The notes under the pieces: model-generated
What the model was told of the DNA's origin: nothing
What the model saw: the letters and a program-made list of their open reading frames with translations, nothing else
The model's database searches: none
Program-made: the position numbers and the translations under genes
DNA from: an uncultured Oscillospiraceae bacterium
GTDB lineage: Bacteria; Bacillota; Clostridia; Oscillospirales; Oscillospiraceae
Length of the DNA: 49,133 nucleotides
Reading direction: 5' to 3'
NCBI GenBank assembly: GCA_944386975.1
Contig: CALXDC010000016.1
Location: 1-49,133 of the forward strand
Shown here: piece by piece, positions 5,129 to 35,442 of the stretch
Layout: each line of letters starts with the position of its first letter
Numbering within the stretch: the first letter of the stretch is position 1

Positions 5129-5965
5129 TTACTTGACGGCGCCGTCGGCCAGACCGCCGGCGATCTTGCTCTGGATGAGGCAGAAGAAGATGATAGACGG
5201 GATGACCACGATGGCGCTGGCGGCCATCATGGAGCCCCAGTTGAGGATGTCGGCGCCCTCCAGGGTCTTTACCGCCACGGAGATGGTGGTTTTGCTGGAG
5301 CTGCTGACGAGCAGCAGGGCGTACAGGAACTCGTTCCAGGCATTGATGAACACGTAGATGGCCGTGGACACCACGCCGGGGGCCACCAGGGGCAGCACCA
5401 CCTTATAGAACACCTGCAGGCGGTTTGCTCCGTCGATACGGGCCGCCTCCTCAATGCCGATGGGTACTGTTTTGAAGAAGCCTACCAGCATCCACACGGC
5501 ATAGGGCACGCTGAAGGACATGTACACCAGCACCAGACCGATACGGGTGTTGGTCAGGTGCAGGGTGCTCATGACCACCGCATAGGGGATGACCAGCATG
5601 ATGGACGGGAACATATAGGTGGTGATCAGAATTTTGGTCATCACGTTGCCCAGCTTGGGGAAAAACCGCACAATGCCGTAGGCGGCCAGGGCGGAGATGA
5701 AGGTGGCCACCACGGTGGTGGACAGGGCCACAATGAGGCTGTTTTTGATGTTGACGGTGAAGTTCAGGGTGAAGAGCACCGTCTTGAAGTTCTCCAGGGT
5801 CCAATCCTTGGGGAAGATCACAGTGGGGTTGGCCAGCATCTCCGTGCTGCTCTTGAAGGCGGACACCAGCAGCCACAGCAGCGGGAATACCGCGCAGATG
5901 GAGAGGATGGTCAGGTACAGGTAGGAAAAGCCGCCGCTGACGGAAAGACGTCTGATCTTTTTCAT
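5129..5965 (-). CDS. Carbohydrate ABC transporter permease (MalG-type)
   Basis: The 278-residue inner-membrane protein starts at MKKIRRL, with GGAGG just upstream and only two bases after the stop of the other permease. It has six predicted membrane helices. The EAA loop that contacts the ATPase reads EEAARIDGANRLQVFYKVVLP, the CUT1 MalG-type signature, near residue 190. It pairs with the MalF-type permease encoded before it. A longer in-frame extension upstream lies inside that gene and is not needed. Confidence 0.93.
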   Translation of the reverse strand: MKKIRRLSVSGGFSYLYLTILSICAVFPLLWLLVSAFKSSTEMLANPTVIFPKDWTLENFKTVLFTLNFTVNIKNSLIVALSTTVVATFISALAAYGIVRFFPKLGNVMTKILITTYMFPSIMLVIPYAVVMSTLHLTNTRIGLVLVYMSFSVPYAVWMLVGFFKTVPIGIEEAARIDGANRLQVFYKVVLPLVAPGVVSTAIYVFINAWNEFLYALLLVSSSSKTTISVAVKTLEGADILNWGSMMAASAIVVIPSIIFFCLIQSKIAGGLADGAVK

Positions 5966-5967
5966 AG

Positions 5968-6879
5968 TCACTTCTCCTCCTTCTCCCAGTGGCGGATGAC
6001 GCTGAAGTACAGGATGCACAGCAGCACCAGGAACAGCAGCAGCAGGATCGAGGCGGCAGAGGCCCGGCCCACCATGCGGCCCGTCCAGCCCATGTTGTAG
6101 ATGTAGATGGGCATGGTGGTGCTGGAGCCGGCGGGACCGCCGGCGGTCATCATGAAGATGATATCGAAGTTGTTGAACACCCACACCGTCCGCAGTACCA
6201 CCAGCAGACCCACCACGATGCGGATGTGGGGAGCGGTGATGTGGCGGAAGGACTGCCAGCCGGAGGCGCCGTCGATCTGGGCGGCCTCATACTGGTCCTG
6301 GGGGATGGTCTGGAGGGCGGCGTAAACGTTGACCAGAATCAGCGGCGCACCGAACCAGATGTTCACCATCATCAGCGTGGGCAGCACCAGATCCGGGTCG
6401 GAGAGGAACTGGACCATGCCGTCGGTGATCCCCAGCTGCATCAGCAGGGAGGGGATAAAGCCCTGGATGCCGTTGAGCATCCACTTCCAGGTCATGGCGA
6501 TGGCGATGGCCGGGAAGGCCCAGGGAATGATGGCGCAGATACGGAAGAGGTTCTTGCCCACCCGGCTTTTGATCCGGTTGAGGCAGAGGGCCCCCACGAA
6601 GCCCACCACGATCTGGCCCAGGAGGCTGCCGATGGTCCAGAGAATGGTGTTGCCGAAGGCCTGGAAGAAATCCTCGTCGGTGAGGATGCGGATGTAGTTT
6701 TCAAATCCCACCGGATCGAAGTCGGTGCGGATCAGGGTCTTGTTGGTGAAGCTGTAGATCACCGTGGACACCAGCGGGTAGATCAGCAAACAGACCACCA
6801 CCGCCAGTGCGGGAAGAACAAACAGCCAGCGGGTCAGACTGCTGCCGTTGACGCCCCCCCGAAGTCGTCTTTCTCTCAT
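5968..6879 (-). CDS. Carbohydrate ABC transporter permease (MalF-type)
   Basis: This 303-residue protein has six membrane helices, the first at about residues 17-38. Its EAA loop YEAAQIDGASGWQSFRHITAP is typical of CUT1 MalF-type permeases. It lies between the solute-binding protein gene and the second permease on the same transcript. No ATPase gene is present in the operon, so a shared MsmX-like ATPase encoded elsewhere is the likely partner (inference from known CUT1 systems). Confidence 0.93.
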   Translation of the reverse strand: MRERRLRGGVNGSSLTRWLFVLPALAVVVCLLIYPLVSTVIYSFTNKTLIRTDFDPVGFENYIRILTDEDFFQAFGNTILWTIGSLLGQIVVGFVGALCLNRIKSRVGKNLFRICAIIPWAFPAIAIAMTWKWMLNGIQGFIPSLLMQLGITDGMVQFLSDPDLVLPTLMMVNIWFGAPLILVNVYAALQTIPQDQYEAAQIDGASGWQSFRHITAPHIRIVVGLLVVLRTVWVFNNFDIIFMMTAGGPAGSSTTMPIYIYNMGWTGRMVGRASAASILLLLFLVLLCILYFSVIRHWEKEEK

Positions 6880-25740: not shown

Positions 25741-26199
25741 TCAGGACCGGGCCGAGCCGATGACGCCTCCCAGCAGGGCCGCCAGATACTCCGCCGCCAT
25801 GACGTAGCCGTCAAAGCCGTGGCCGGCGATGGTCTTCACGCAGGCGGCGCGGATATAGGATACCTGGCGGAAGTCCTCCCGCTGGGACACGTCGGAGATA
25901 TGGACCTCCACCGTGGGGATGCCCACCGCCTTCACCGCGTCCAGCAGGGCCACGCTGGTGTGGGTATAGGCGGCGGGGTTGATGATGATGCCGTCCACAT
26001 GGTCGAAATAGGCCTGCTGGATGGCGGTCACCAGATCCCCCTCGTGGTTGGACTGGAAAAAGGACACCTCCGCCCCCAGCTTCTCGCAGCCCTGCCGCAC
26101 GTAGGCCAGCAGGTCCTCATAGGTGCGCTTGCCGTAAATATCCGGCTCCCGGATGCCCAACATGTTGATGTTGGGGCCGTTGAGTACAAGAAATTTCAT
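25741..26199 (-). CDS. aroQ: 3-dehydroquinate dehydratase, type II
   Basis: The 152-residue protein is the standard size for the dodecameric type II enzyme, which removes water from 3-dehydroquinate (third shikimate step). Diagnostic segments are LVLNGPNINMLGIREPDIYG with the catalytic Tyr22, FFQSNHEGDLV, INPAAYTHTSVAL with His101 after a conserved Asn, and VEVHISDVSQRE. It follows the shikimate dehydrogenase/kinase fusion after four bases and is the last aro gene of the operon. Confidence 0.97.
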   Translation of the reverse strand: MKFLVLNGPNINMLGIREPDIYGKRTYEDLLAYVRQGCEKLGAEVSFFQSNHEGDLVTAIQQAYFDHVDGIIINPAAYTHTSVALLDAVKAVGIPTVEVHISDVSQREDFRQVSYIRAACVKTIAGHGFDGYVMAAEYLAALLGGVIGSARS

Positions 26200-26203
26200 G
26201 GTC

Positions 26204-27433
26204 TCACTCTCCCAAAAAAGCGTGTATCATCCGCTCCGATAATTCCTCCGGCTTTCCGCTGTTGAAAAGCGTCCAGTCTGCGGCGGCGGCGTAGTAGGGC
26301 TCCCGCTCCACCTCCATCTCCCGCAGGCGCTGGGGGGAGGAGGACAGGGGGCGGCCCGACAGGGGCAGCTCCTCCACCGGGCGGCGCAGGCGGCAGATCC
26401 AGCCGTTTTGCCGCAGAAGAGGCAGATTTTCTTTCCGCAGCACCGCACCGCCGCCGGTGGCAATGACCACCCCGGACCGCTTGCCAAGCTCCGCCAGCAC
26501 CTCAGTCTCCCGCAGCCGAAAGCCCGCCTCCCCCTCCTTTTCAAAGATCTCTGGAATGGACATGCCCGCTTTTTCCGCAATGAGGCAGTCCGCGTCCAGG
26601 AAGGGACGGCCCAGCTGTTTCGCCGCCAGACGGCCCAAGGTGGACTTGCCGCTGCCGGGCATGCCGATGAGAATGAGGTTGGTGACGTCGGCCTGAACCT
26701 TCCGCAGCACCGCCTCCATCTTCTCTTCGGAAATCGTCTCTCCTGTGAAGAGCTCGGCGGCCCGCTTGGCCTGGGCCACCAGCATGGGGAGGCCCCCGGC
26801 GTGAGGGGCGCCCAGTGCCTCCGCCTGGAGGAGAAAGGCGGTTTTCAGGGGGTTATACACCACGTCCGCTACGCCCTTCAGGTTGGGAAAGCGGCTGAGG
26901 TCCAGGGCGGCGTTCCCGTTATTGGGGAACATGCCCACAGGGGTGGTGTTGACAATGATCTCCGCGTCGGCGCGGTCATAGACGTTGTCGTAGCTGAGGG
27001 AGCCGGACCGGGAGACCCGGTCCACGGAGGCAGCCCCCAGGTCCTCCAGAGCCTTGGAGGCGGTGAGGGAGGTGCCCCCGCTGCCCAGCACCAGGCAGCG
27101 GCGGCCTTTGGGGTCCACGCCTCCCCGGCGGAGGGTGGTGCAAAAGCCGTAGTAGTCGGTGTTGTCCCCGAAGAGGGAGCCGTCGGCCCGCCGGACCAGG
27201 GTGTTGACGCAGCCGATGCGCCGGGCCCCCTCTCCCAGCGCATCGCACCAGGGGAGAACGGTTTTTTTATAAGGAATGGTCACGTTGAGACCCCGGAAGT
27301 CCCGGGCCTCCAGGAAGGCGGGGAGCTCCTCCGGGGAGATCTCCCGCAGCTGGTAGTCATAGTCGGCCAGCAGGCCGTGGATGCGGGGGGAGTGGCTGTG
27401 GCCCAGCCGCTCGCCAATCAATCCATACTCCAA
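26204..27433 (-). CDS. aroE/aroK: Bifunctional shikimate dehydrogenase / shikimate kinase fusion
   Basis: The product is about 409 residues. The N-terminal part (1 to about 245) is AroE: YGLIGERLGHSHSP, NVTIPYKK with the catalytic Lys, DNTDYYGF with the catalytic Asp, and LGSGGTSLTASKAL at the NADP fold. The C-terminal part (about 253-409) is AroK, with P-loop GMPGSGKST, LDADCLIAEKAG, ATGGGAVLR and the Arg lid GRPLSSSP. I chose TTG 27433 (MEYGLIGERLGHS) because it matches AroE N-termini and has GAGGTGA upstream; GTG or an ATG at 27472 remain possible. The fusion lets one chain catalyse two consecutive steps. The nested-repeat element lies directly upstream. Confidence 0.93.
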   Translation of the reverse strand: MEYGLIGERLGHSHSPRIHGLLADYDYQLREISPEELPAFLEARDFRGLNVTIPYKKTVLPWCDALGEGARRIGCVNTLVRRADGSLFGDNTDYYGFCTTLRRGGVDPKGRRCLVLGSGGTSLTASKALEDLGAASVDRVSRSGSLSYDNVYDRADAEIIVNTTPVGMFPNNGNAALDLSRFPNLKGVADVVYNPLKTAFLLQAEALGAPHAGGLPMLVAQAKRAAELFTGETISEEKMEAVLRKVQADVTNLILIGMPGSGKSTLGRLAAKQLGRPFLDADCLIAEKAGMSIPEIFEKEGEAGFRLRETEVLAELGKRSGVVIATGGGAVLRKENLPLLRQNGWICRLRRPVEELPLSGRPLSSSPQRLREMEVEREPYYAAAADWTLFNSGKPEELSERMIHAFLGE

Positions 27434-27532
27434 AAAGGTCACCTCTTTTTTGCCCCTCAGACGCCGGAGCATCGCTTTTTTGCCCTCTGACGAGGGGGTC
27501 GTCTTTTTTGTCGGTACCCGACGGTTTTTCCT

Positions 27533-28271: not shown

Positions 28272-29411
28272 TCACACCTCGCTATAGGCACCCAGGAGGA
28301 CGAAGAACTCCAGCTCCTGCTCCAGCTCGCTGAGGAGCTTCACCACCTGCTCGTCGTAGATGCTGCCCTCAAAGTCCATGTAGAACATATAGTGGAAGTC
28401 CGCGCCGGTGATGGGGCGGCTCTCCAGCTTGGTCATATTGAGCCCAAGAGAGGAGAACCGGGACAGAATCCGGGTCAGGGAGCCGGGGGTGTGGCCCACC
28501 TTGAACATGAGGCTCAGGTGGTTGGCACCCGGATAAATCTCCGTATTTTTGGAGATGACGATGAACCGGGTGTAGTTGTTGTCCGTGTTCTGAATGCCGT
28601 GCTGGAGCTCGCTGAGGCCATAGATTCCGGCGCACACCGGGCTGGAGATGGCCGCCACGTCGTCACGGCCGCTCTCCGCCACCATTTTGGCCGCCATGGC
28701 CGTGTTCTCACACACCGTCACCGTCACCATGGGCATAGTCTTCAAGAACTCGCTGCACTGGCCGATGGCCTGCTCATGGGAAAAAATCTCCGTAATCTTC
28801 TTCACATCTGTGCCGGGCTTTGCCATGAGGCTGTGACTCACGTGGAGCTTCACGCTGCGGACGATGTGAAAATCAAAGGACCGCATCAGGTCGTAGACCC
28901 CGTTGACGCTGCCGTGGGAGCTGTTCTCAATGGGCAGGATACCGTACTGGCACATGCCCTTCTGCACCGCCGAGAACACCCCCTCCCAGGTGCGGAAGTA
29001 CATGATATCCGCAAAGGCGAAGGCCTTGTCGCAGGCCTGCTGGGCATAGGAGCCCTCCACACCCTGGCAGGCCACCACCGCCTTCTTGGGGAAGAGCTGG
29101 GGGGTGGTTTCCAGAGCGTGCTGGATGTCCCGGGCCACGGCGGACTCCGGGGCCATCAGCTGGCCCTGGTAGGTGCGGCTGAGATCAAACAGAGTGGAGA
29201 AGAGAATGCGGGCATAGCCGTCCAGCTGGTCCCCCGCCTGGGCGGAGATCCGGGATAAAATTTCACGCTCCCGGCCCTGGTTCACCACCGCCAGGCCGTG
29301 CTCCTTCTTGTACTCCGCCACCTGGCGGCACAGGTCCATCCGCCGGAGAAAGACGTCGGTGAGTTCCGTGTCCACCTCGTCCAGATTCTTGCGCAGTTGT
29401 TCGAGATCCAT
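28272..29411 (-). CDS. pheA: Bifunctional chorismate mutase / prephenate dehydratase (P-protein)
   Basis: The product is 379 residues. Residues 1-85 form an AroQ-type chorismate mutase (LRKNLDEVDTELTDVFLRRM). Residues about 105-285 are the prephenate dehydratase (CQGVEGSYAQQA, PIENSSHGSVNGVYDLM, NNYTRFIVIS with the catalytic Thr-Arg-Phe). Residues about 298-379 are the ACT domain (GHTPGSLTRILSRFSSLGLNMTKLESRP), which gives feedback inhibition by phenylalanine. It follows aroC by 54 bases. The start is the ATG preceded by AAGGAAG. With tyrA upstream it splits chorismate between Phe and Tyr. Confidence 0.96.
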   Translation of the reverse strand: MDLEQLRKNLDEVDTELTDVFLRRMDLCRQVAEYKKEHGLAVVNQGREREILSRISAQAGDQLDGYARILFSTLFDLSRTYQGQLMAPESAVARDIQHALETTPQLFPKKAVVACQGVEGSYAQQACDKAFAFADIMYFRTWEGVFSAVQKGMCQYGILPIENSSHGSVNGVYDLMRSFDFHIVRSVKLHVSHSLMAKPGTDVKKITEIFSHEQAIGQCSEFLKTMPMVTVTVCENTAMAAKMVAESGRDDVAAISSPVCAGIYGLSELQHGIQNTDNNYTRFIVISKNTEIYPGANHLSLMFKVGHTPGSLTRILSRFSSLGLNMTKLESRPITGADFHYMFYMDFEGSIYDEQVVKLLSELEQELEFFVLLGAYSEV

Positions 29412-29465
29412 AGTTTCTTCTTCCTTCCTCCCGCCGCCGGCGGGCCCTTTGATATCCAATATGGT

Positions 29466-30548
29466 TTATTCTCCCAAAATTACGTCCGCCAAGGCGATGG
29501 CGGCGGCGGCTTCCACACAGGGCACCGCCCGGGTCACCACGCAGGGGTCGTGGCGGCCCTTGATGATCAGCTCTGTCTCCTCCATGGCGGCGAGGTCCAC
29601 CGACCGCTGGGGCCGCGAGATGGAGGGGGTGGGCTTGAAGGCGCACCGGAACAGCAGGGGCATGCCGGTGGAGAGCCCCCCCAGGATGCCGCCGTGGCGG
29701 TTGGTCTCCGTGACCACCTTTCCCTCCCGGACGCGGAAGGGGTCGTTGTTCTCCGAGCCGTGGAGCTTCGCCGCGGCAAAGCCCGCGCCGAACTCGATGC
29801 CCTTCACCGCCGGGATGCCGAACACCGCCCGGGCGATGAGGTTTTCAAGCCCGTCGAACATGGGGCCCCCCAGCCCCACTGGCAGGCCCAGCACACAGCA
29901 CTCCACCGTGCCGCCCACGCTGTCCTGGTGGGCGGAGGCGTCGTAGATGGCGGCCAGCATCCGCTGCCCAGCCGCCTCGTCCACCACCGCTAAGGGGCGG
30001 CGGGCAGAGACGGTCTCCAGCTGCGCCGCCGTTACCTCCACCGGGTGGAAGGGGGTGTCCTTCACCCCGGCGATGGCGTCGATGTGGGCGCCGATGGTAA
30101 CGCCCCGGCGGCGATAAAGCTGGAGGAGGATGCCTCCGGCGATGCACAGGGGCGCGGTGAGGCGGCCGGAGAAGTGGCCGCCCCCCCGGACGTCGTTGTG
30201 ACCGCCCCACTTCACCCAGGCGGGGTAGTCGGCGTGGCCGGGCCGGGGTACGGTGAGGACGTTCTCGTAGTCCTTGGAGCGGGTGTCGGTGTTTTCAATG
30301 ACGGCGCAGAGGGGTGCGCCGCAGGTGCGGCCGTCCACCAGCCCCGAGAGGATCTTGGGCACGTCCCCCTCCTTCCGGGCGGTGGTGTGGAGGCCCTGGC
30401 CGGGGCGGCGGCGGTCCAGGAAGGCCTGGAGCTCCTCCAGGTCCACCGCCTCCCCGGCGGGGAGACCGTCCACCACCACGCCGATGCCCTGGGCGTGGGA
30501 TTGGCCGAAGATGGAAATTTTGATCTGTTCGCCGAACTCAGAGGACAT
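29466..30548 (-). CDS. aroC: Chorismate synthase
   Basis: The 360-residue FMN-dependent enzyme converts EPSP to chorismate. Signatures include GQSHAQGIGVVVDGLPAG, the Arg-rich loop DRRRPGQG, KWGGHNDVRGGGHFSGRLT and the C-terminal PQRSVD region. The ATG behind GGGAGGGG overlaps the aroA stop by eleven bases, indicating translational coupling. The length and conserved His residues (HAQ, GGHFSGR) are normal. Confidence 0.97.
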   Translation of the reverse strand: MSSEFGEQIKISIFGQSHAQGIGVVVDGLPAGEAVDLEELQAFLDRRRPGQGLHTTARKEGDVPKILSGLVDGRTCGAPLCAVIENTDTRSKDYENVLTVPRPGHADYPAWVKWGGHNDVRGGGHFSGRLTAPLCIAGGILLQLYRRRGVTIGAHIDAIAGVKDTPFHPVEVTAAQLETVSARRPLAVVDEAAGQRMLAAIYDASAHQDSVGGTVECCVLGLPVGLGGPMFDGLENLIARAVFGIPAVKGIEFGAGFAAAKLHGSENNDPFRVREGKVVTETNRHGGILGGLSTGMPLLFRCAFKPTPSISRPQRSVDLAAMEETELIIKGRHDPCVVTRAVPCVEAAAAIALADVILGE

Positions 30549-31770
30549 GGACTTCCCCTCCCAACCGTTGGTATTCCTCCCAGAAATCCGGGTAGGACTT
30601 TTTGACGCACTCCGCGCCGGTCAGCGTCACCGGGCCGTCGGCGCGGGTGGCCAGCACCGCCGCCATCATGGCGATGCGGTGGTCGTTGCAGCAGTCCACG
30701 GCTACATTTCCACGCAGCTGCTGCCGGCCGCAGATGGAGAGACTGTCGGGCCTCTCCTCCACCCGGACGCCGAAGGTTTCCAGAGTTTCCCGGACGGTGG
30801 TGAGCCGGTCGCTCTCCTTCAGCCGCAGCCGTCCGGCATTTTTCAGCCGGGTGCAGCCCTCATTTCCCGCCGCCAAGGCCGCCAGAGGCGGCACTAAGTC
30901 CGGAATATGGCGGACATCCAGCCCTCGGTCTGCCGGAACGCCGTCAAAGAAATCCAGCAGATCCACAATGGAGCGGTCCCCTTGAGGGGAGCGGGGGTTC
31001 ATGCCGGTGACGGCGACGTCGCTGCCCAGATTGGCCGCAGCGTACCAGAAGGCGGCCTGGGACCAGTCCGCCTCCACCTGGGCGGTGCAGGGGCGATAGG
31101 CCTGATTTCCGGCAATCCGGAACCCCTCCGGCCGCAATCCCCCCACCCGGACGCCGAAGCGCTCCTGGGCCTCCCGGGTGATGGCCAGATAGCCCGCCGA
31201 CTCCAAATCGGTGGTGGGCACTACTGCCGATTCCCCGTCCAGGAGGGGCAGGGCGAAGAAGAGACCGGTGAAAAATTGGCTGGACACGTTCCCAGGCAGT
31301 GCGTAGCGCCCGGGCTGAGGGTCCCCCGCCACGGTGAGAACGTCCCCCTCCTGCTCCCAGGAGACGCCCTTCTCCCGAAACAGCGTCAGATAGGGCCCCT
31401 GGGGCCGCTCCATGAGCCGGCCTCGACCGGTGAACACCCCGCCGCCCCGGAGGGCCAGGGCGATGGGAATGAGGAAACGGAGGGTGGAGCCGGACTCCCC
31501 GCAGTCCAGATGGGGCAGCTCTCCGCCCCGGGTCCGCCGTCCTCCCATACCCTGCACTTGAATAACGCCGGGACCCGTCTCCTGCCAGGAGGCCCCCAGG
31601 GCCTCCATGCACCGGAGGGTGGCTGCCACGTCCTGAGAGAAGGCCACGTTCTCAATGGTGCTGGTCCCATCCGCCAGGGCGGCGGCAATGATGAGGCGGT
31701 GGGCCTGGGATTTGCTGGGGGGCGGAGTGACGGTACCCCGCAGCTTCTTTGGTACAATGGTCAGATTCAC
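30538..31770 (-). CDS. aroA: 5-enolpyruvylshikimate-3-phosphate synthase
   Basis: The 410-residue enzyme joins shikimate-3-phosphate and phosphoenolpyruvate. Seen are PPPSKSQAHRLIIAAALADG at the N-terminus, LDCGESGSTLRFLIPIAL (the LDxGNxGTxxR equivalent with E and S changes), GNVSSQFFTGL, and KESDRL with DHRIAMM near the end. The glyphosate-loop variation (G-E-S-G-S) resembles class II-like enzymes. The start overlaps the aroB stop by four bases (ATGA). Confidence 0.96.
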   Translation of the reverse strand: MNLTIVPKKLRGTVTPPPSKSQAHRLIIAAALADGTSTIENVAFSQDVAATLRCMEALGASWQETGPGVIQVQGMGGRRTRGGELPHLDCGESGSTLRFLIPIALALRGGGVFTGRGRLMERPQGPYLTLFREKGVSWEQEGDVLTVAGDPQPGRYALPGNVSSQFFTGLFFALPLLDGESAVVPTTDLESAGYLAITREAQERFGVRVGGLRPEGFRIAGNQAYRPCTAQVEADWSQAAFWYAAANLGSDVAVTGMNPRSPQGDRSIVDLLDFFDGVPADRGLDVRHIPDLVPPLAALAAGNEGCTRLKNAGRLRLKESDRLTTVRETLETFGVRVEERPDSLSICGRQQLRGNVAVDCCNDHRIAMMAAVLATRADGPVTLTGAECVKKSYPDFWEEYQRLGGEVHVL

Positions 31771-32819
31771 AGCGCCGCCTCCACAAAGTCCTTCAGCTCC
31801 GGCATGGTGAGCTGCACCGTTTCCGCCCGGCCGATTTCCCGGAGGACCACCACGTCGATATGGTCGCCGCTGCGCTTCTTGTCCCCGGCAGCGGCAGCCA
31901 GCAGCTCTTCCGCCGCGTAATCGCAGGCGGTGGGCAGATCGTACCGGCGGTTGGCCTCCAGAATCTCCTCCAGCACCCCTACCGGGGTGTGACCGAGGCG
32001 CTCCGCCGCCCGGGTTATCAGCACCATGCCGATGGCCACGGCGTGACCGTGGGGCACCCGGTAGCCGCTACACCGCTCCACCGCGTGACCCAGGGTGTGG
32101 CCGAAGTTCAAAAGCTTCCGCCGTCCCCGCTCATATTCATCCTCCGCCACCACGGCGGCCTTGATTTCCACATTCCGGCGTACCGCCTGGGGAAGCCAGC
32201 CGTGGACGTCCTCCGCCAGCAGACGGCGGAAGAAGGCGGCGTCGGCGATGAGACCGTGCTTCAGGGTCTCTGCCGCCCCGTCGGCAAAGGTCTCCGGTGG
32301 GAGGGTGGCGAAGGTGTCGCAGTCGCAGACCACCATCCGAGGGGGCCAGAAGGCCCCCACCAGGTTCTTCCCCGCCTCCAGGTCCACGGCGGTCTTACCC
32401 CCCACGGAGGAGTCGGAGGCCGCCAGGAAGGTGGTGGGCACCTGGATGTAGTCGATGCCCCGCTGGTAGGTGGCGGCGGCAAAGCCCGCCATATCTCCGG
32501 TGACCCCGCCGCCCAGGGCCAGGATGCAGTCGCTGCGGGTCAGATGGTTGGCGGCTAAAAATTCCAGGATCTCCCCGTAGGTGGAGAGAGTCTTGCTCCG
32601 CTCCCCGGCGGGGAAGGTGCAGAGGAGGGGGGTGAATCCCGCGCTCTGAAGACTCTTTCCCACCCGGTCGGCGTAGAGCTTCCGGACAGTGGTGTCCGTC
32701 ACCACGCAGCACCGGCGGGAGCCGGTGATCCCCTTCAGAAGCGCCCCGCATTGGTCCAAAAGGCCGCTGCCGATATACACCGGGTAGTCCCGGGACGCCT
32801 GTACCTGTACCGTCTCCAT
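31767..32819 (-). CDS. aroB: 3-dehydroquinate synthase
   Basis: The 350-residue Zn- and NAD-dependent enzyme makes 3-dehydroquinate from DAHP. Diagnostic stretches: FPAGERSKTLSTYGEILEFL, LGGGVTGDMAGFAAATYQRG, PTTFLAASDSSVGGKTAVD, the metal ligands in ETLKHGLIAD and NFGHTLGHAVE, and GHAVAIGM. The start codon overlaps the tyrA stop by one base, and its own stop overlaps the aroA start, so translation is tightly coupled. Confidence 0.97.
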   Translation of the reverse strand: METVQVQASRDYPVYIGSGLLDQCGALLKGITGSRRCCVVTDTTVRKLYADRVGKSLQSAGFTPLLCTFPAGERSKTLSTYGEILEFLAANHLTRSDCILALGGGVTGDMAGFAAATYQRGIDYIQVPTTFLAASDSSVGGKTAVDLEAGKNLVGAFWPPRMVVCDCDTFATLPPETFADGAAETLKHGLIADAAFFRRLLAEDVHGWLPQAVRRNVEIKAAVVAEDEYERGRRKLLNFGHTLGHAVERCSGYRVPHGHAVAIGMVLITRAAERLGHTPVGVLEEILEANRRYDLPTACDYAAEELLAAAAGDKKRSGDHIDVVVLREIGRAETVQLTMPELKDFVEAAL

Positions 32820-33667
32820 CAGTCCGACCCCTCCTCTCGATCCAGCTGTGTCTTCCGCTCCCGTCCCTCCCGGAGAAGGGCGGTGAGGGCCTCCTCGTCG
32901 CCGTCCACGATGGCTCTGTCGTACTCCTCCAGCCGCTCTACCAAGCCCCGAATCTCATGGTGGAGGTCCTCCCGGTTCAGCATAAAGAGCTCCGCCCACA
33001 TTTTCTCATTGAGGAAGGCCACTCGGGTCATATCCCGGAAGCTGCCCGCCGAGAACCCCCGGTGTTCCGGGGCGGTGGGGCTTTTCACATAGGCACTGGA
33101 CACCACGTGGGCCAGCTGGCTGGTGAGGGCGATGATCCGGTCGTGCTGCTGAGGGGTGGCGATCTGGTAGCGGGTGAAGCCGATGGCGTCGAAGACGTCC
33201 TTCAGCCGCTTCATGGTCTCGATGTCGATGTCCCGGTGGGGCACCAGAATCATGGAGGCGTTCACAAACAGGTCCCGCCGGGAGTGCTCGAAGCCCAGCT
33301 TGGCCATGCCCTCCATGGGGTGGCCGCCGATGAAGGTAAAGCCGTGTTCCTCGGCGATCTTCCAGCAGGGCTCACACACCGCCTGCTTCACCCCGGCGCA
33401 GTCCACCACCACGGCCCCCTTCTGGATAACCTCCGCGTGGCCGCGGACCCATTCCACCGTGTCCCGGGGGTAGAGGGCCAGGATGATGAGGCTGCACTCC
33501 CCAAGGCGCTCCTCAGTGAGCTCCTCGTCGATAACCTCCAGGAGCTTGGCCCGGTACACCACCGGCCTTGCCAGATCCGCCCCCAGCACGGTGTGGGCGG
33601 TGTTGGCCTTCACGGCCCGGGCCAGGGAGCCGCCGATGAGGCCCAGACCCACGATGCCGACTGTCAT
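32819..33667 (-). CDS. tyrA: Prephenate dehydrogenase
   Basis: The 282-residue enzyme converts prephenate to 4-hydroxyphenylpyruvate on the tyrosine branch. An N-terminal NAD fold (IVGLGLIGGSLA, residues 5-16) and family motifs FIGGHPMEG and SQLAHVVSSAYV are present; the His of GGHPMEG is catalytic in homologues. There is no C-terminal ACT domain, so control of the Tyr branch would fall to other layers. It follows the DAHP synthase gene by 18 bases. Confidence 0.96.
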   Translation of the reverse strand: MTVGIVGLGLIGGSLARAVKANTAHTVLGADLARPVVYRAKLLEVIDEELTEERLGECSLIILALYPRDTVEWVRGHAEVIQKGAVVVDCAGVKQAVCEPCWKIAEEHGFTFIGGHPMEGMAKLGFEHSRRDLFVNASMILVPHRDIDIETMKRLKDVFDAIGFTRYQIATPQQHDRIIALTSQLAHVVSSAYVKSPTAPEHRGFSAGSFRDMTRVAFLNEKMWAELFMLNREDLHHEIRGLVERLEEYDRAIVDGDEEALTALLREGRERKTQLDREEGSD

Positions 33668-33685: not shown

Positions 33686-34705
33686 TCAGATTTGCTCGTA
33701 ATTATATTGGCAGTAGGGCAGGATGTGGCGCACGTCCTCCGCCAGAGCGGCGAAAGCGGCGGGAGTGATGGACTGGGGACCGTCGCACCAGGCGTGCTGG
33801 GGGTCGTTGTGGACCTCGATCATCAGGCCGTCGGCCCCGGCGGCGGCGGCAGCCATGGCCATGGGCCGCACCAGGGAGGCCTTTCCGGTGGCGTGGCTGG
33901 GGTCGATGACCACCGGCAGGTGGCTCATGGACTTCAAAACCGGCACGGCGCTGAGGTCCAGGGTGTTCCGGGTGGCGGTCTCAAAGGTGCGGATACCCCG
34001 CTCACAGAGAATCACCTGCTCGTTGCCTCCGGCCATGACGTACTCGGCGCTCATGAGGAGCTCCTGGAGGGTGGCGGACATGCCCCGCTTGATGAGGATG
34101 GGCTTGCGGAGGTGGCCCAGCTCCTTGAGAAGCTCGAAGTTCTGCATGTTCCGGGCCCCCACCTGGATGATGTCCACCTCGTCGAAGCAGTCCAGCTGGT
34201 GGAGGTCCATGATCTCGGTGATGATGGGCAGGCCCGTCTTCTCCTTGGCCTCCAGCAGAAGGCGGATGCCCTCGGCGCCGAGACCCTGGAAGGAGTAGGG
34301 GGAGGTGCGGGGCTTGAAGGCGCCGCCCCGGAGGATTCCCGCCCCGGCGGCCTTCACGTCGGCGGCCACGGCGCAGATCTGCTCCTCCGTCTCCACGGAG
34401 CAAGGGCCCGCGATGAACTGGAAGTTGCCGCCGCCCAGCTTGACATCCCCCACCTGAATCACCGTGTCCTGGGGGTGGAACTTCCGGTTGGCGTTTTTAA
34501 AGGGCTCCTGGATCCGTTTGACGGACTCCACGATGTCCAGAGCTTTGATGAGATCAATATCCACCACGGAGGTGTCGCCCACCAGCCCCATCACCGTCTG
34601 GTTGGCGCCGTTGCTGATGTGAAGCTCCAGACCTAAGCTCTGCAGCCAGTTCTTCAGATTCTCCAGCTGCTTCTCGTTGGGATTTTTTTTCAGAATGACA
34701 ACCAT
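33686..34705 (-). CDS. aroF: DAHP synthase (class I-beta, with N-terminal regulatory domain)
   Basis: The 339-residue enzyme condenses phosphoenolpyruvate and erythrose-4-phosphate. The start is the ATG behind GGGGAGGAAA. Residues 1-70 form a ferredoxin-like regulatory domain of the Thermotoga type (VVILKKNPNEKQLENL). The barrel has FIAGPCSVETEEQI, GAFKPRTSPYSFQGLG, ILIKRGMSATLQELLMSAEY, VIDPSHATGKASLV and GLMIEVHNDP. It is the first structural gene of the aromatic operon, after the leader peptide and attenuator, so both transcription and activity probably respond to Phe or Tyr. Confidence 0.96.
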   Translation of the reverse strand: MVVILKKNPNEKQLENLKNWLQSLGLELHISNGANQTVMGLVGDTSVVDIDLIKALDIVESVKRIQEPFKNANRKFHPQDTVIQVGDVKLGGGNFQFIAGPCSVETEEQICAVAADVKAAGAGILRGGAFKPRTSPYSFQGLGAEGIRLLLEAKEKTGLPIITEIMDLHQLDCFDEVDIIQVGARNMQNFELLKELGHLRKPILIKRGMSATLQELLMSAEYVMAGGNEQVILCERGIRTFETATRNTLDLSAVPVLKSMSHLPVVIDPSHATGKASLVRPMAMAAAAAGADGLMIEVHNDPQHAWCDGPQSITPAAFAALAEDVRHILPYCQYNYEQI

Positions 34706-34747: not shown

Positions 34748-34788
34748 CAAAAGAAAAGGGCTTCACAGTGCACCCACCGTGAAGCCCC
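34748..34788 (-). terminator. Attenuator terminator ahead of aroF
   Basis: Minus strand: GGGCTTCAC (34779-34787) pairs perfectly with GTGAAGCCC (34758-34766) and is followed by TTTTCTTTT (34749-34757). The 5' arm segment CTTCACGGTG (34775-34784) can instead pair with CACCGAGAAG (34832-34841) inside the leader peptide gene (9 of 10 bases), which would break the terminator. Confidence 0.87.
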
Positions 34789-34804
34789 GAAAAACGCCGG
34801 CTCG

Positions 34805-34924
34805 TTATGCCGCCTCCATCGCGTGCATACTCTTCTCGGTGAACGCCAAATAAGCCTTACCGGCAAAAAAGCTGGTAAAGCTAAAGAAGAAGTAGTATGC
34901 CTTTGTCAGAAGGCTGCGATCCAT
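34805..34924 (-). CDS. Phe/Tyr-rich leader peptide of the aromatic operon
   Basis: The 39-residue peptide has ten aromatic residues (seven Phe, three Tyr), including the uninterrupted run YYFFF at residues 10-14 (34883-34897), then FF at 19-20, Tyr25 and Phe28. AGGAG lies 11 bases before the ATG, and a strong promoter ends about 35 bases before it. The Phe codon run CTTCTT can pair with GAGAAG of the antiterminator segment (with one G-U), giving the 1:2, 2:3 and 3:4 choices of a classical attenuator. Stalling at scarce charged tRNA-Phe or tRNA-Tyr would favour read-through into aroF. The peptide itself is probably not functional. Confidence 0.85.
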   Translation of the reverse strand: MDRSLLTKAYYFFFSFTSFFAGKAYLAFTEKSMHAMEAA

Positions 34925-34958
34925 TGCGTCATACGCTCCTGCTTTTGAAATCGGAGAT

Positions 34959-34987
34959 AGTATAGCACGGCTTTTTCCCTTTGTAAA
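34959..34987 (-). promoter_or_regulatory. Promoter of the aromatic amino acid operon
   Basis: Minus strand: TTTACA (34982-34987), a 17-base spacer and TATACT (34959-34964). The expected start near 34952 gives a leader of about 250 bases to aroF. Confidence 0.85.
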
Positions 34988-35009: not shown

Positions 35010-35053
35010 ACAAAATCATCCCCCGACGGACTGCAGTCCGCCGGGGGATGATT
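35010..35053 (-). terminator. Terminator of dnaX-ybaB
   Basis: A long stem (12 outer pairs 35014-35025 with 35042-35053, one mismatch, then CGGACT/AGTCCG) is followed on the minus strand by TTTTGTG. Confidence 0.87.
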
Positions 35054-35063
35054 GAAACCTGTA

Positions 35064-35432
35064 TTATAGCTTGAATCCGGGGATGTTCAGCCCGCCGGCC
35101 AGGCCCTCCATGCTCTTGTTCATGGCCTCCTCCGCCTGACGCAGCACCTCGTTGACGGCGCTGAGGACCATATCCTGGACCGTCTCCGCGTCCTCGGGGT
35201 TCAGCACCTCGGGGCTGATGATCAGCTCCGTCAGCTCCTTCTTGCCGTTGGCCACCGCCTTCACGGCTCCGCCGCCCACCGTGGCGGTGAAGAGAGTCTT
35301 CTCCACTTCCTCCTGCTTCTGGGCCATCTCCTGCTGCATCTTCATGATTTTCTGCTGCATCTGGGCCTGCTGGCGCATCATATTGCCGCCGCCGAAGCCG
35401 CCCATACCCTTGGGAAATCCGCCTTTTGCCAT
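35064..35432 (-). CDS. ybaB: YbaB/EbfC-family nucleoid-associated protein
   Basis: The 122-residue protein begins at the ATG with GAGGA seven bases upstream; a TTG two codons earlier is less likely. A Gly/Met-rich start (MAKGGFPKGMGGFGGGNMM) leads into a long Gln/Lys/Glu helix (QQKIMKMQQEMAQKQEEVEK) and the family core TATVGGGAVKAVANGKKEL. The dimer binds DNA. The gene follows dnaX after ten bases, the usual order, but recR, its common next neighbour, is absent; a terminator and the aro leader come instead. Confidence 0.95.
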   Translation of the reverse strand: MAKGGFPKGMGGFGGGNMMRQQAQMQQKIMKMQQEMAQKQEEVEKTLFTATVGGGAVKAVANGKKELTELIISPEVLNPEDAETVQDMVLSAVNEVLRQAEEAMNKSMEGLAGGLNIPGFKL

Positions 35433-35442
35433 GTCCAATTCC

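Follow-up and report, generated by a model that had tools for sequence, protein, structure and literature searches.

Accounts of amino acid operons in clostridia usually centre on T-boxes and repressors. In an uncultured Oscillospiraceae bacterium, the operon for aromatic amino acid synthesis is preceded by a short reading frame rich in Phe and Tyr codons and by a terminator. What does this leader do, and how widely is it used? The window, that is the whole stretch of 49,133 nucleotides analysed here, carries the operon aroF-tyrA-aroB-aroA-aroC-pheA-aroEK-aroQ, which holds both tyrA and pheA behind a leader with both Phe and Tyr codons. We consider it very probable that this leader is a classical ribosome-mediated transcription attenuator of the trp/phe type. 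A preliminary description of the DNA had come to the same reading, and the comparison supports it, since relatives keep the ORF, the terminator and the antiterminator, the pairing covaries and the codons track the operon. What sequence and comparison bear on directly are the parts of the leader, their conservation, the covariation of the antiterminator and the agreement of leader codons with operon content where a genome has two aroF copies.

The operon and its leader

The genes of the operon were assigned from Pfam matches:

33686..34705, minus strand: aroF (DAHP synthase), first gene of the operon (DAHP_synth_1 and a ferredoxin-like domain)
32819..33667, minus strand: tyrA (prephenate dehydrogenase; PDH_N, PDH_C)
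31767..32819, minus strand: aroB (3-dehydroquinate synthase; DHQ_synthase, DHQS_C)
30538..31770, minus strand: aroA (EPSP synthase; EPSP_synthase)
29466..30548, minus strand: aroC (chorismate synthase; Chorismate_synt)
28272..29459, minus strand: pheA (chorismate mutase-prephenate dehydratase; CM_2, PDT, with ACT below its cut-off)
26204..27472, minus strand: aroE-aroK fusion (Shikimate_dh_N, SDH_C, SKI)
25741..26199, minus strand: aroQ (type II dehydroquinase; DHquinase_II)

The leader consists of the following parts:

34959..34987, minus strand: sigma-70-type promoter TTTACA-17-TATACT with an extended -10 TG (promoter search and genus alignment)
34936..34940, minus strand: Shine-Dalgarno (SD) motif AGGAG, 11 nt 5' of the leader ATG (sequence)
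34805..34924, minus strand: leader peptide ORF, from the ATG at 34924 to the stop at 34805 (sequence)
34883..34897, minus strand: Tyr-Tyr-Phe-Phe-Phe codon run, the proposed stall site and part of segment 1 (sequence)
34853..34882, minus strand: inner hairpin P1, AGCTTTACC / GGTAAGGCT, with aromatic codons in its loop (predicted, -15.0 kcal/mol)
34825..34900, minus strand: segment 1:2 stem (anti-antiterminator), enclosing P1 (predicted, -29.1 kcal/mol including P1)
34832..34846, minus strand: segment 2, the 5' strand of the antiterminator, inside the ORF (pairing and covariation)
34770..34784, minus strand: segment 3, terminator 5' arm and loop, the 3' strand of the antiterminator (pairing and covariation)
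34757..34788, minus strand: intrinsic terminator, a 14-pair stem with 8 G-C pairs, followed by U-rich TTTCTTTT (-25.7 kcal/mol)

Promoter, AGGAG, aromatic ORF, terminator and aroF thus follow one another on the minus strand from 34987 to 34705. The promoter has 10 of 12 matches and is the only one found in the leader, against a mean of 0.2 in shuffles; a TTTACA...TATACT or TATAAT block is aligned across the 10 complete leaders of the genus. The ORF (MDRSLLTKAYYFFFSFTSFFAGKAYLAFTEKSMHAMEAA) has 39 codons, 10 of them aromatic (7 Phe, 3 Tyr and 0 Trp). The preliminary description had named a promoter before the ORF, which we find as TTTACA-17-TATACT at 34987..34959, and a 39-codon ORF with YYFFF and ten aromatic codons, which agrees exactly with 34924-34805. 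It had also placed a 9-bp terminator before aroF; the terminator stands, and the length does not, as the stem comprises 14 pairs (34788..34757). An out-of-frame ATG at 34932 lies nearer to the SD motif than the leader ATG (minus strand, 34906-34968) and opens a short ORF that ends MTQWIAAF and overlaps the leader start.

Folding of the leader, a check already proposed in the preliminary description, gave -92.1 kcal/mol for 34987-34740 against -69.0 +/- 4.6 kcal/mol in 200 shuffles (z -5.0). In the predicted antiterminator duplex, 34846-34832 pairs with 34784-34770 in 14 of 15 positions, G-U included (-15.9 kcal/mol). The earlier observation that 34841-34832 can form 9 of 10 pairs with 34784-34775 was right and covers two thirds of this longer duplex. 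The earlier proposal that segment 2 can also pair with the Phe codon run is likewise borne out by the predicted stem 34900-34825 (-29.1 kcal/mol), in which the Tyr/Phe run pairs with 34837-34825. Segment 2 is therefore predicted to have two alternative partners, the terminator arm and loop or the Phe/Tyr run. The 1:2 stem is stable in prediction, and there is little covariation outside P1 in the genus.

In the window leader, no family of Rfam 15 (4227 models, T-box included) was found at its gathering cut-off. The best match inside the leader in a lax scan was ctRNA_p42d on the terminator hairpin (24.7 bits against a cut-off of 50, E 0.003); this sub-threshold match was taken as a look-alike hairpin, and the remaining lax matches were weaker. 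A His_leader match (24.4 bits against a cut-off of 49) lies outside the leader at 35011-35060. A strong hairpin occupies the same positions on the minus strand, 3' of a YbaB-like gene (35064-35438) and upstream of the leader promoter, and probably marks where the upstream dnaX-ybaB unit ends (gene names by eye).

The genome from which the window derives contains 13 T-box (RF00230) matches, five of them over the cut-off. None lies on the window's contig, and a T-box occurs at aroF in some relatives, so that the contrast with T-boxes drawn in the preliminary description holds. NCBIfam named the next gene at four of ten T-box loci examined: glyS, pheS, a TrpB-like gene and a protein truncated at the locus end, whose best match, indolepyruvate oxidoreductase alpha, is below the model cut-off; the T-box matches at pheS and at the TrpB-like gene are below the T-box cut-off. 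By these scans the bacterium possesses T-boxes and appears to use none at aroF. Two T-boxes over the cut-off (L194, L195; contig C4 near 50-54 kb) precede two genes, one by eye an AMP-dependent ligase, the other with indolepyruvate ferredoxin oxidoreductase alpha as its best match; a PaaK homologue lies on the same contig at C4:56906. Arylacetate genes in this genome also appear to be amino-acid regulated.

Conservation, covariation and ribosome position

Leader DNA was matched in 11 of 11 genus genomes examined, always before aroF; the aroF of the ten other genus genomes shows 82-98% identity by tblastn. Ten leaders are complete, the eleventh (L011) being cut by a contig end. The ORF is present in all ten, with peptides of the same design such as MANKLLTSVYFFFFSFTYYFMGKAYLGFTEKGRRACQAA, and both length changes inside these ORFs are of 3 nt. 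P1 and segment 2 are very highly conserved at the nucleotide level. All ten leaders have the same terminator 5' arm, CTTCACGGTG, and three 3'-arm positions vary among them without loss of pairing, a pattern to be expected of a 5' arm with two partners. In the two closest relatives (L002, L003) the extra upstream ATG is in frame. In L007 and L008, a cobalamin-riboswitch-like stretch (GCCACCGCGGCAGGGGGAAGTCCGGTGAAAATCCGGCGCAGTC, by eye) is found on the opposite strand not far from the leader, past its promoter.

Alignment of relatives, the other check proposed beforehand, extended this beyond the genus: the antiterminator covaries, and aromatic codon runs recur. In 116 leaders with a G-K-A type motif, segment 2 was defined as the 10 nt that begin 12 nt downstream of the Lys codon's first base, and was scored against the terminator 5' arm and loop in the best gapless register. 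With their own partners, 56/116 leaders formed 10/10 pairs and 76/116 at least 9 (mean 8.99); swapped partners, from segments differing in at least 3 of 10 positions and with equal freedom of register, gave a mean of 7.14 and at least 9 pairs in 594/6560 cases. When only one leader per distinct segment was kept, 31 of 39 beat the swapped mean (8.36 versus 7.25, Wilcoxon p 9e-6). In a formal count over 71 distinct segment pairs, whose shuffles did not share the freedom of picking the best register, 87.0% of cells pair versus 71.0% in shuffles, double-change cells number 89 versus 23.1 +/- 3.9, covariation is 0.502 versus 0.213 (0.059-0.132 in registers slid by 1-3 columns), and all 10 pairs change on both sides, as they do in 13 of 500 shuffles. 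Examples of segment 2 and arm are GCGTTCACCG/CGGTGGGTGC in the window, GGTTTGGCTG/CAGCCAAACC, CGTTTGGCTG/CGGCTAAACG and CATTGCGCTG/CGGCTCAATG (9/10). Judged by these comparisons, the covariation of the antiterminator is strong. For P1, the 116 leaders contain 20 distinct arm pairs, 84 leaders sharing one of them, with three compensated positions and 7.8 of 9 pairs for own versus 7.3 for swapped partners; the small number of versions is partly due to the fact that named loci were found by P1 sequence.

The effect of ribosome position was modelled in 41 leaders by folds in which the terminator 3' arm was not yet made and the ribosome was masked at each codon, footprint and timing being assumed. 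The score is the fraction of segment 2 paired with the terminator arm. It averaged 0.20-0.39 with the ribosome at positions -19 to -1 before the Lys codon, 0.18 at Lys, 0.08 at +1 and 0.00 from +2 to +10, rising to at most 0.16 at +13/+14 (few leaders); a ribosome at the stop codon gave 0.07, and leaving the ribosome out gave 0.16. The aromatic codons cluster between -13 and -2, immediately 5' of the masking boundary near Lys, and 0.90 of the leaders have a further one at +2, beyond the boundary. The antiterminator also forms in these folds with the ribosome at many upstream non-aromatic codons. The window leader scored 0.00 both without a ribosome and at the stop codon, 0.32-0.42 for stalls at L6 to Y11 and at F14 (0.39), only 0.02 at F12 and F13, and 0.09, 0.02 and 0.00 at F16, F19 and F20. 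Within YYFFF, masking favours the antiterminator at both Tyr codons and the third Phe codon, not at the first two Phe codons. The model thus predicts the antiterminator for part of the window's aromatic codons, a matter of compatibility and not of proof. A generic test of duplex energy between leader and terminator arm was noisy (mean z -1.5; 74/213 leaders below z -2) and did not single out the window leader (z +1.03).

Distribution and codon content

Upstream regions of aroF were scored for an aromatic ORF, the threshold being at least 6 aromatic residues in 15 codons. In a sample of the window's family not chosen by the element, 81/105 upstreams pass (four partial places left out; L221, L226, L234 and L247 shortened by contig ends). 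In the order outside the family 58/88 pass (eleven lower-ranking or partial places left out), at least two of them falsely: L361 and L362 passed the threshold, but carry T-boxes. All aroF upstreams pass in f7 (8/8), f8 (3/3), f10 (6/6), f15 (6/6), f16 (3/3), f20 (3/3) and f23 (6/6), and few or none in f13 (4/14), f2 (1/7) and f6 (0/4). Relatives with aroF and without the ORF, which the preliminary description would have counted against its reading, do not occur among the genus genomes examined, and are found in most of f2, f6 and f13 and, by the threshold, in 24/105 places of the window's own family. Farther out, 17/29 upstreams pass in other orders of the class and 5/28 in other classes of the phylum (best-matching loci only, one per genome; own-family locus L445 left out). 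All three controls stay within 3-8%: 59/2100 upstreams shuffled in two-base blocks, 21/278 upstreams read on the reverse strand, and 3/45 upstreams of other genes in the 78 named loci.

An aromatic ORF with a terminator is present in 213/278 distinct upstreams, 78 of the 278 having been found by the P1 pattern. Among these 213 leaders, 187 have an SD-like motif within 18 nt and 208 start with ATG, which the choice of ORF preferred. A covariance model built from the 10 genus leaders found 56/300 sampled family genomes, in 33 of 106 genera, at E<=0.1. Of 24 matched loci examined outside the genus (L019-L042), 23 lie before aroF and one, L037, before tyrA (by eye). The exact P1 pattern occurs at a minimum of 118 loci in named genomes, the carriers including Oscillibacter valericigenes Sjm18-20, O. 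ruminantium GH1, Oscillibacter sp. 1-3, PC13 and MSJ-31, and Dysosmobacter MAGs. Among the listed matches, 91 have aroF on the same strand, for 89 of these 100-260 nt downstream of the pattern, and 87 of the 90 listed with aroF within 500 nt have an ORF with at least 6 Phe/Tyr. Four of the 27 listed matches that lack a same-strand aroF have leader-like ORFs (L128, L133, L136, L145); the 23 others have none and look like chance matches.

Some leaders stand before other genes. In L128 the element precedes pheA (5515-6654; best NCBIfam match chorismate mutase/prephenate dehydratase, below cut-off). Together with the tyrA locus L037 this implies that the leader element has moved between aromatic genes, or that aroF was lost. 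In L133 (4570-5934, minus strand) and L136 (4824-6140, minus strand) a Phe-rich leader with terminator precedes a gene whose best match is the phenylacetate-CoA ligase PaaK, below the model cut-off, with a small ACT-type protein next (by eye). The same kind of leader is found at L495, a locus with a homologue of the L136 ligase in G090, a 100% complete genome without an aroF match. These loci suggest that the PaaK-type ligase is regulated as a gene of Phe synthesis. On a wider look, 66/150 family genomes match paaK; in 30 paaK loci examined, an aromatic ORF passes the threshold only at L495 (8 aromatic residues) and L470 (7), and with 2/30 loci the use of the leader at paaK is sporadic.

At aroF itself, a T-box (RF00230) over the cut-off was found in 9 of 20 order loci scanned, most of which had been picked for want of a convincing leader (seven in f13, two in f3); the 11 others have neither a T-box over the cut-off nor, mostly, a convincing leader. 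In the class, L437 and L439 (aroF-pheA) carry T-boxes.

Genomes with more than one aroF allow leader codons to be compared with operon content. The set comprises all 23 family genomes with at least two aroF matches (47 loci), 20 of the loci having been picked first for different-looking leaders and the rest to complete the set, and only leaders with at least 5 of 15 aromatics were compared. Before aroF-tyrA operons without aroB or pheA, Tyr outnumbers Phe in 15/17 leaders (one with more Phe, one tie; 34 F and 89 Y in all). Before aroF-aroB...pheA operons without tyrA, Phe outnumbers Tyr in 15/15 (77 F, 19 Y, 15 W). The split by operon type is significant with a Fisher p of 6e-8, kinship in these multi-copy genomes being ignored, and the leaders are mostly alike, suggesting one related group. 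A typical pair is that of G098, with MALYFGYAYGYYRYYRSGYFACP before aroF-tyrA and MSRSALTTASFFFTFGWARFMSAGYFVLGK before aroF-aroB...pheA. Four leaders of operons with both tyrA and pheA contain 19 F and 16 Y. Below the threshold were 11 of the 47 loci: 2 aroF-tyrA, 4 aroF-aroB and 5 without other aro genes. Over all loci with downstream DNA (fifteen had too little and two had neither gene), the median F/(F+Y) is 0.80 for aroF-aroB leaders (14 distinct peptides) versus 0.55 for aroF-tyrA leaders (101; p 1.5e-7, kinship ignored), and two aroF-pheA leaders are pure Phe. Other orders show only a trend (p 0.077; 5 versus 11 distinct peptides with at least 6 aromatics). This tracking of operon content by codon content is the strongest hint of function. 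Thirteen of the 15 Phe-type leaders of the multi-copy genomes also contain Trp, as one or two codons that mostly belong to a GWARF-like motif (L364, L366, L368, L370, L372, L374 and others); joint sensing of Trp is possible.

Mechanism, alternatives and known systems

In the mechanism that we propose, RNA polymerase would start at about 34950 and a ribosome would translate the 39-codon leader. With Phe-tRNA and Tyr-tRNA in ample supply, the ribosome would pass segment 2, which would then pair again with the Phe/Tyr run (segment 1) around P1; the terminator would form and transcription would end near 34750. With Phe-tRNA or Tyr-tRNA in short supply, the ribosome would stall in YYFFF and cover segment 1. 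Left free, segment 2 (34846-34832) would pair with 34784-34770 ahead of synthesis of the 3' arm, and transcription would continue into the operon. If the leader were not translated at all, the 1:2 stem would likewise favour termination. From the arrangement of the leader we infer translation, stalling, dependence on tRNA, transcription-translation coupling and premature termination. Classical attenuation requires such coupling, which has been reported to be absent in B. subtilis.

Could the leader act without its peptide being read? In a metabolite-binding riboswitch, or a tRNA-sensing RNA of the T-box kind, one frame would be open by accident. This would suit the very high nucleotide conservation of P1 and segment 2 in the genus, where the peptide can vary (T to A or I, G to D or S) while the P1 pairs stay. 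It is hard to reconcile with the lack of any Rfam match, T-box included, at gathering level in the window leader, with genus ORFs that change length by 3 nt, with the SD-like motif and the ATG in 187/213 and 208/213 leaders, and with dissimilar leaders in many families that keep aromatic codons and terminator; nor would an aptamer explain why the Phe:Tyr ratio tracks operon content in two-copy genomes. We therefore regard it as very unlikely. Another alternative is that the ORF encodes a small functional peptide, in the membrane or acting in trans, whose own 3' end would be the terminator, with the aroF promoter elsewhere. The 39-residue product is hydrophobic and well conserved in the genus, and a leader peptide with a function in trans, peTrpL of Sinorhizobium, is reported (PMC7298713). 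Yet the sequences differ widely across families while position, aromatic codons and terminator recur, no Pfam family matches, and the ORF and the terminator 5' arm covary, so that we think this explanation very unlikely indeed. Finally, an aromatic ORF might stand by chance next to the terminator of an upstream unit, with no regulation at all; T-rich hydrophobic ORFs arise easily, and 21/278 reverse-strand controls pass the threshold. Recurrence in 11/11 genus genomes and in family, order and class, together with the covariation, contradicts chance, which we find scarcely credible.

Classical attenuation thus remains our preferred reading of the window leader. Beyond it, we lean slightly towards a joint reading of all loci, in which a large and fast-diversifying set of leader-peptide attenuators trades with T-boxes at aroF across Clostridia, separate sensors arose after aroF duplication, and the element also serves pheA, tyrA and, sporadically, the ligase. 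A Tyr-codon leader would then belong to aroF-tyrA and a Phe-codon leader, mostly with a Trp codon, to aroF-aroB-aroA-aroC-pheA, and a leader before the phenylacetate-CoA ligase suggests that this enzyme works there in Phe synthesis from phenylacetate. Phenylalanine and tyrosine would probably be made only when short, by means of a switch that folds into or out of a stop signal, and similar switches appear to stand before aroF in many related Clostridia. If many Oscillospirales attenuate aroF via the ribosome, coupling of polymerase and ribosome would be needed at least over the leader. The aromatic codons of the leader would moreover provide a rule, readable from sequence, for the amino acid served by each aroF paralogue in common gut bacteria.

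The mechanism is known and the leader family new, apparently undescribed: neither Rfam 15 nor the papers listed in searches of open-access literature yielded a description of an aromatic leader peptide at aroF in Oscillospirales. What is surprising is the unusually wide spread and the division of labour for Phe and Tyr between aroF copies. In the enteric pheA, trp and his leaders, an ORF with runs of codons for the regulated amino acid is combined with alternative 1:2, 2:3 and 3:4 hairpins and an intrinsic terminator. The window leader resembles them in its short ORF with end-product codon runs, its predicted alternative hairpins and its terminator before a biosynthetic operon. In contrast to the enteric leaders, the whole of segment 2 is contained in the ORF, some 30 nt short of the stop, and the element stands before aroF in Clostridia, has Phe and Tyr codons together and matches no Rfam leader family at cut-off.

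The uORFC-13-1 motif (PMC8632094) is an Acholeplasma uORF with a Phe-coding U run directly before a terminator and aroF. The section on this motif proposes attenuation, gives 24 representatives from Acholeplasma and environmental sequences only, and reports a further base-paired substructure. Both it and the window have the order uORF-terminator-aroF; neither Tyr codons nor an antiterminator are mentioned in that section. According to PMC9413887 and PMC2965389, His-leader attenuators are used in Firmicutes, in places where others have a T-box; they serve the histidine operon or hisS/hisZ (17 genomes in PMC9413887), whereas the window leader stands before aroF. The Leu-rich attenuator peptide of S. 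aureus ilv-leu is genetically supported in a Firmicute (PMC5794164); it differs from the window leader in its Leu (and Ile) codons, in its operon and in being also under CodY. For T-boxes, the survey PMC2494555 places tyrosine biosynthesis in B. anthracis under T-box control. The T-box (RF00230) at aroF in relatives, absent at the window, shares with the leader the gene and the presumed signal, uncharged tRNA, and reads it without a leader peptide.
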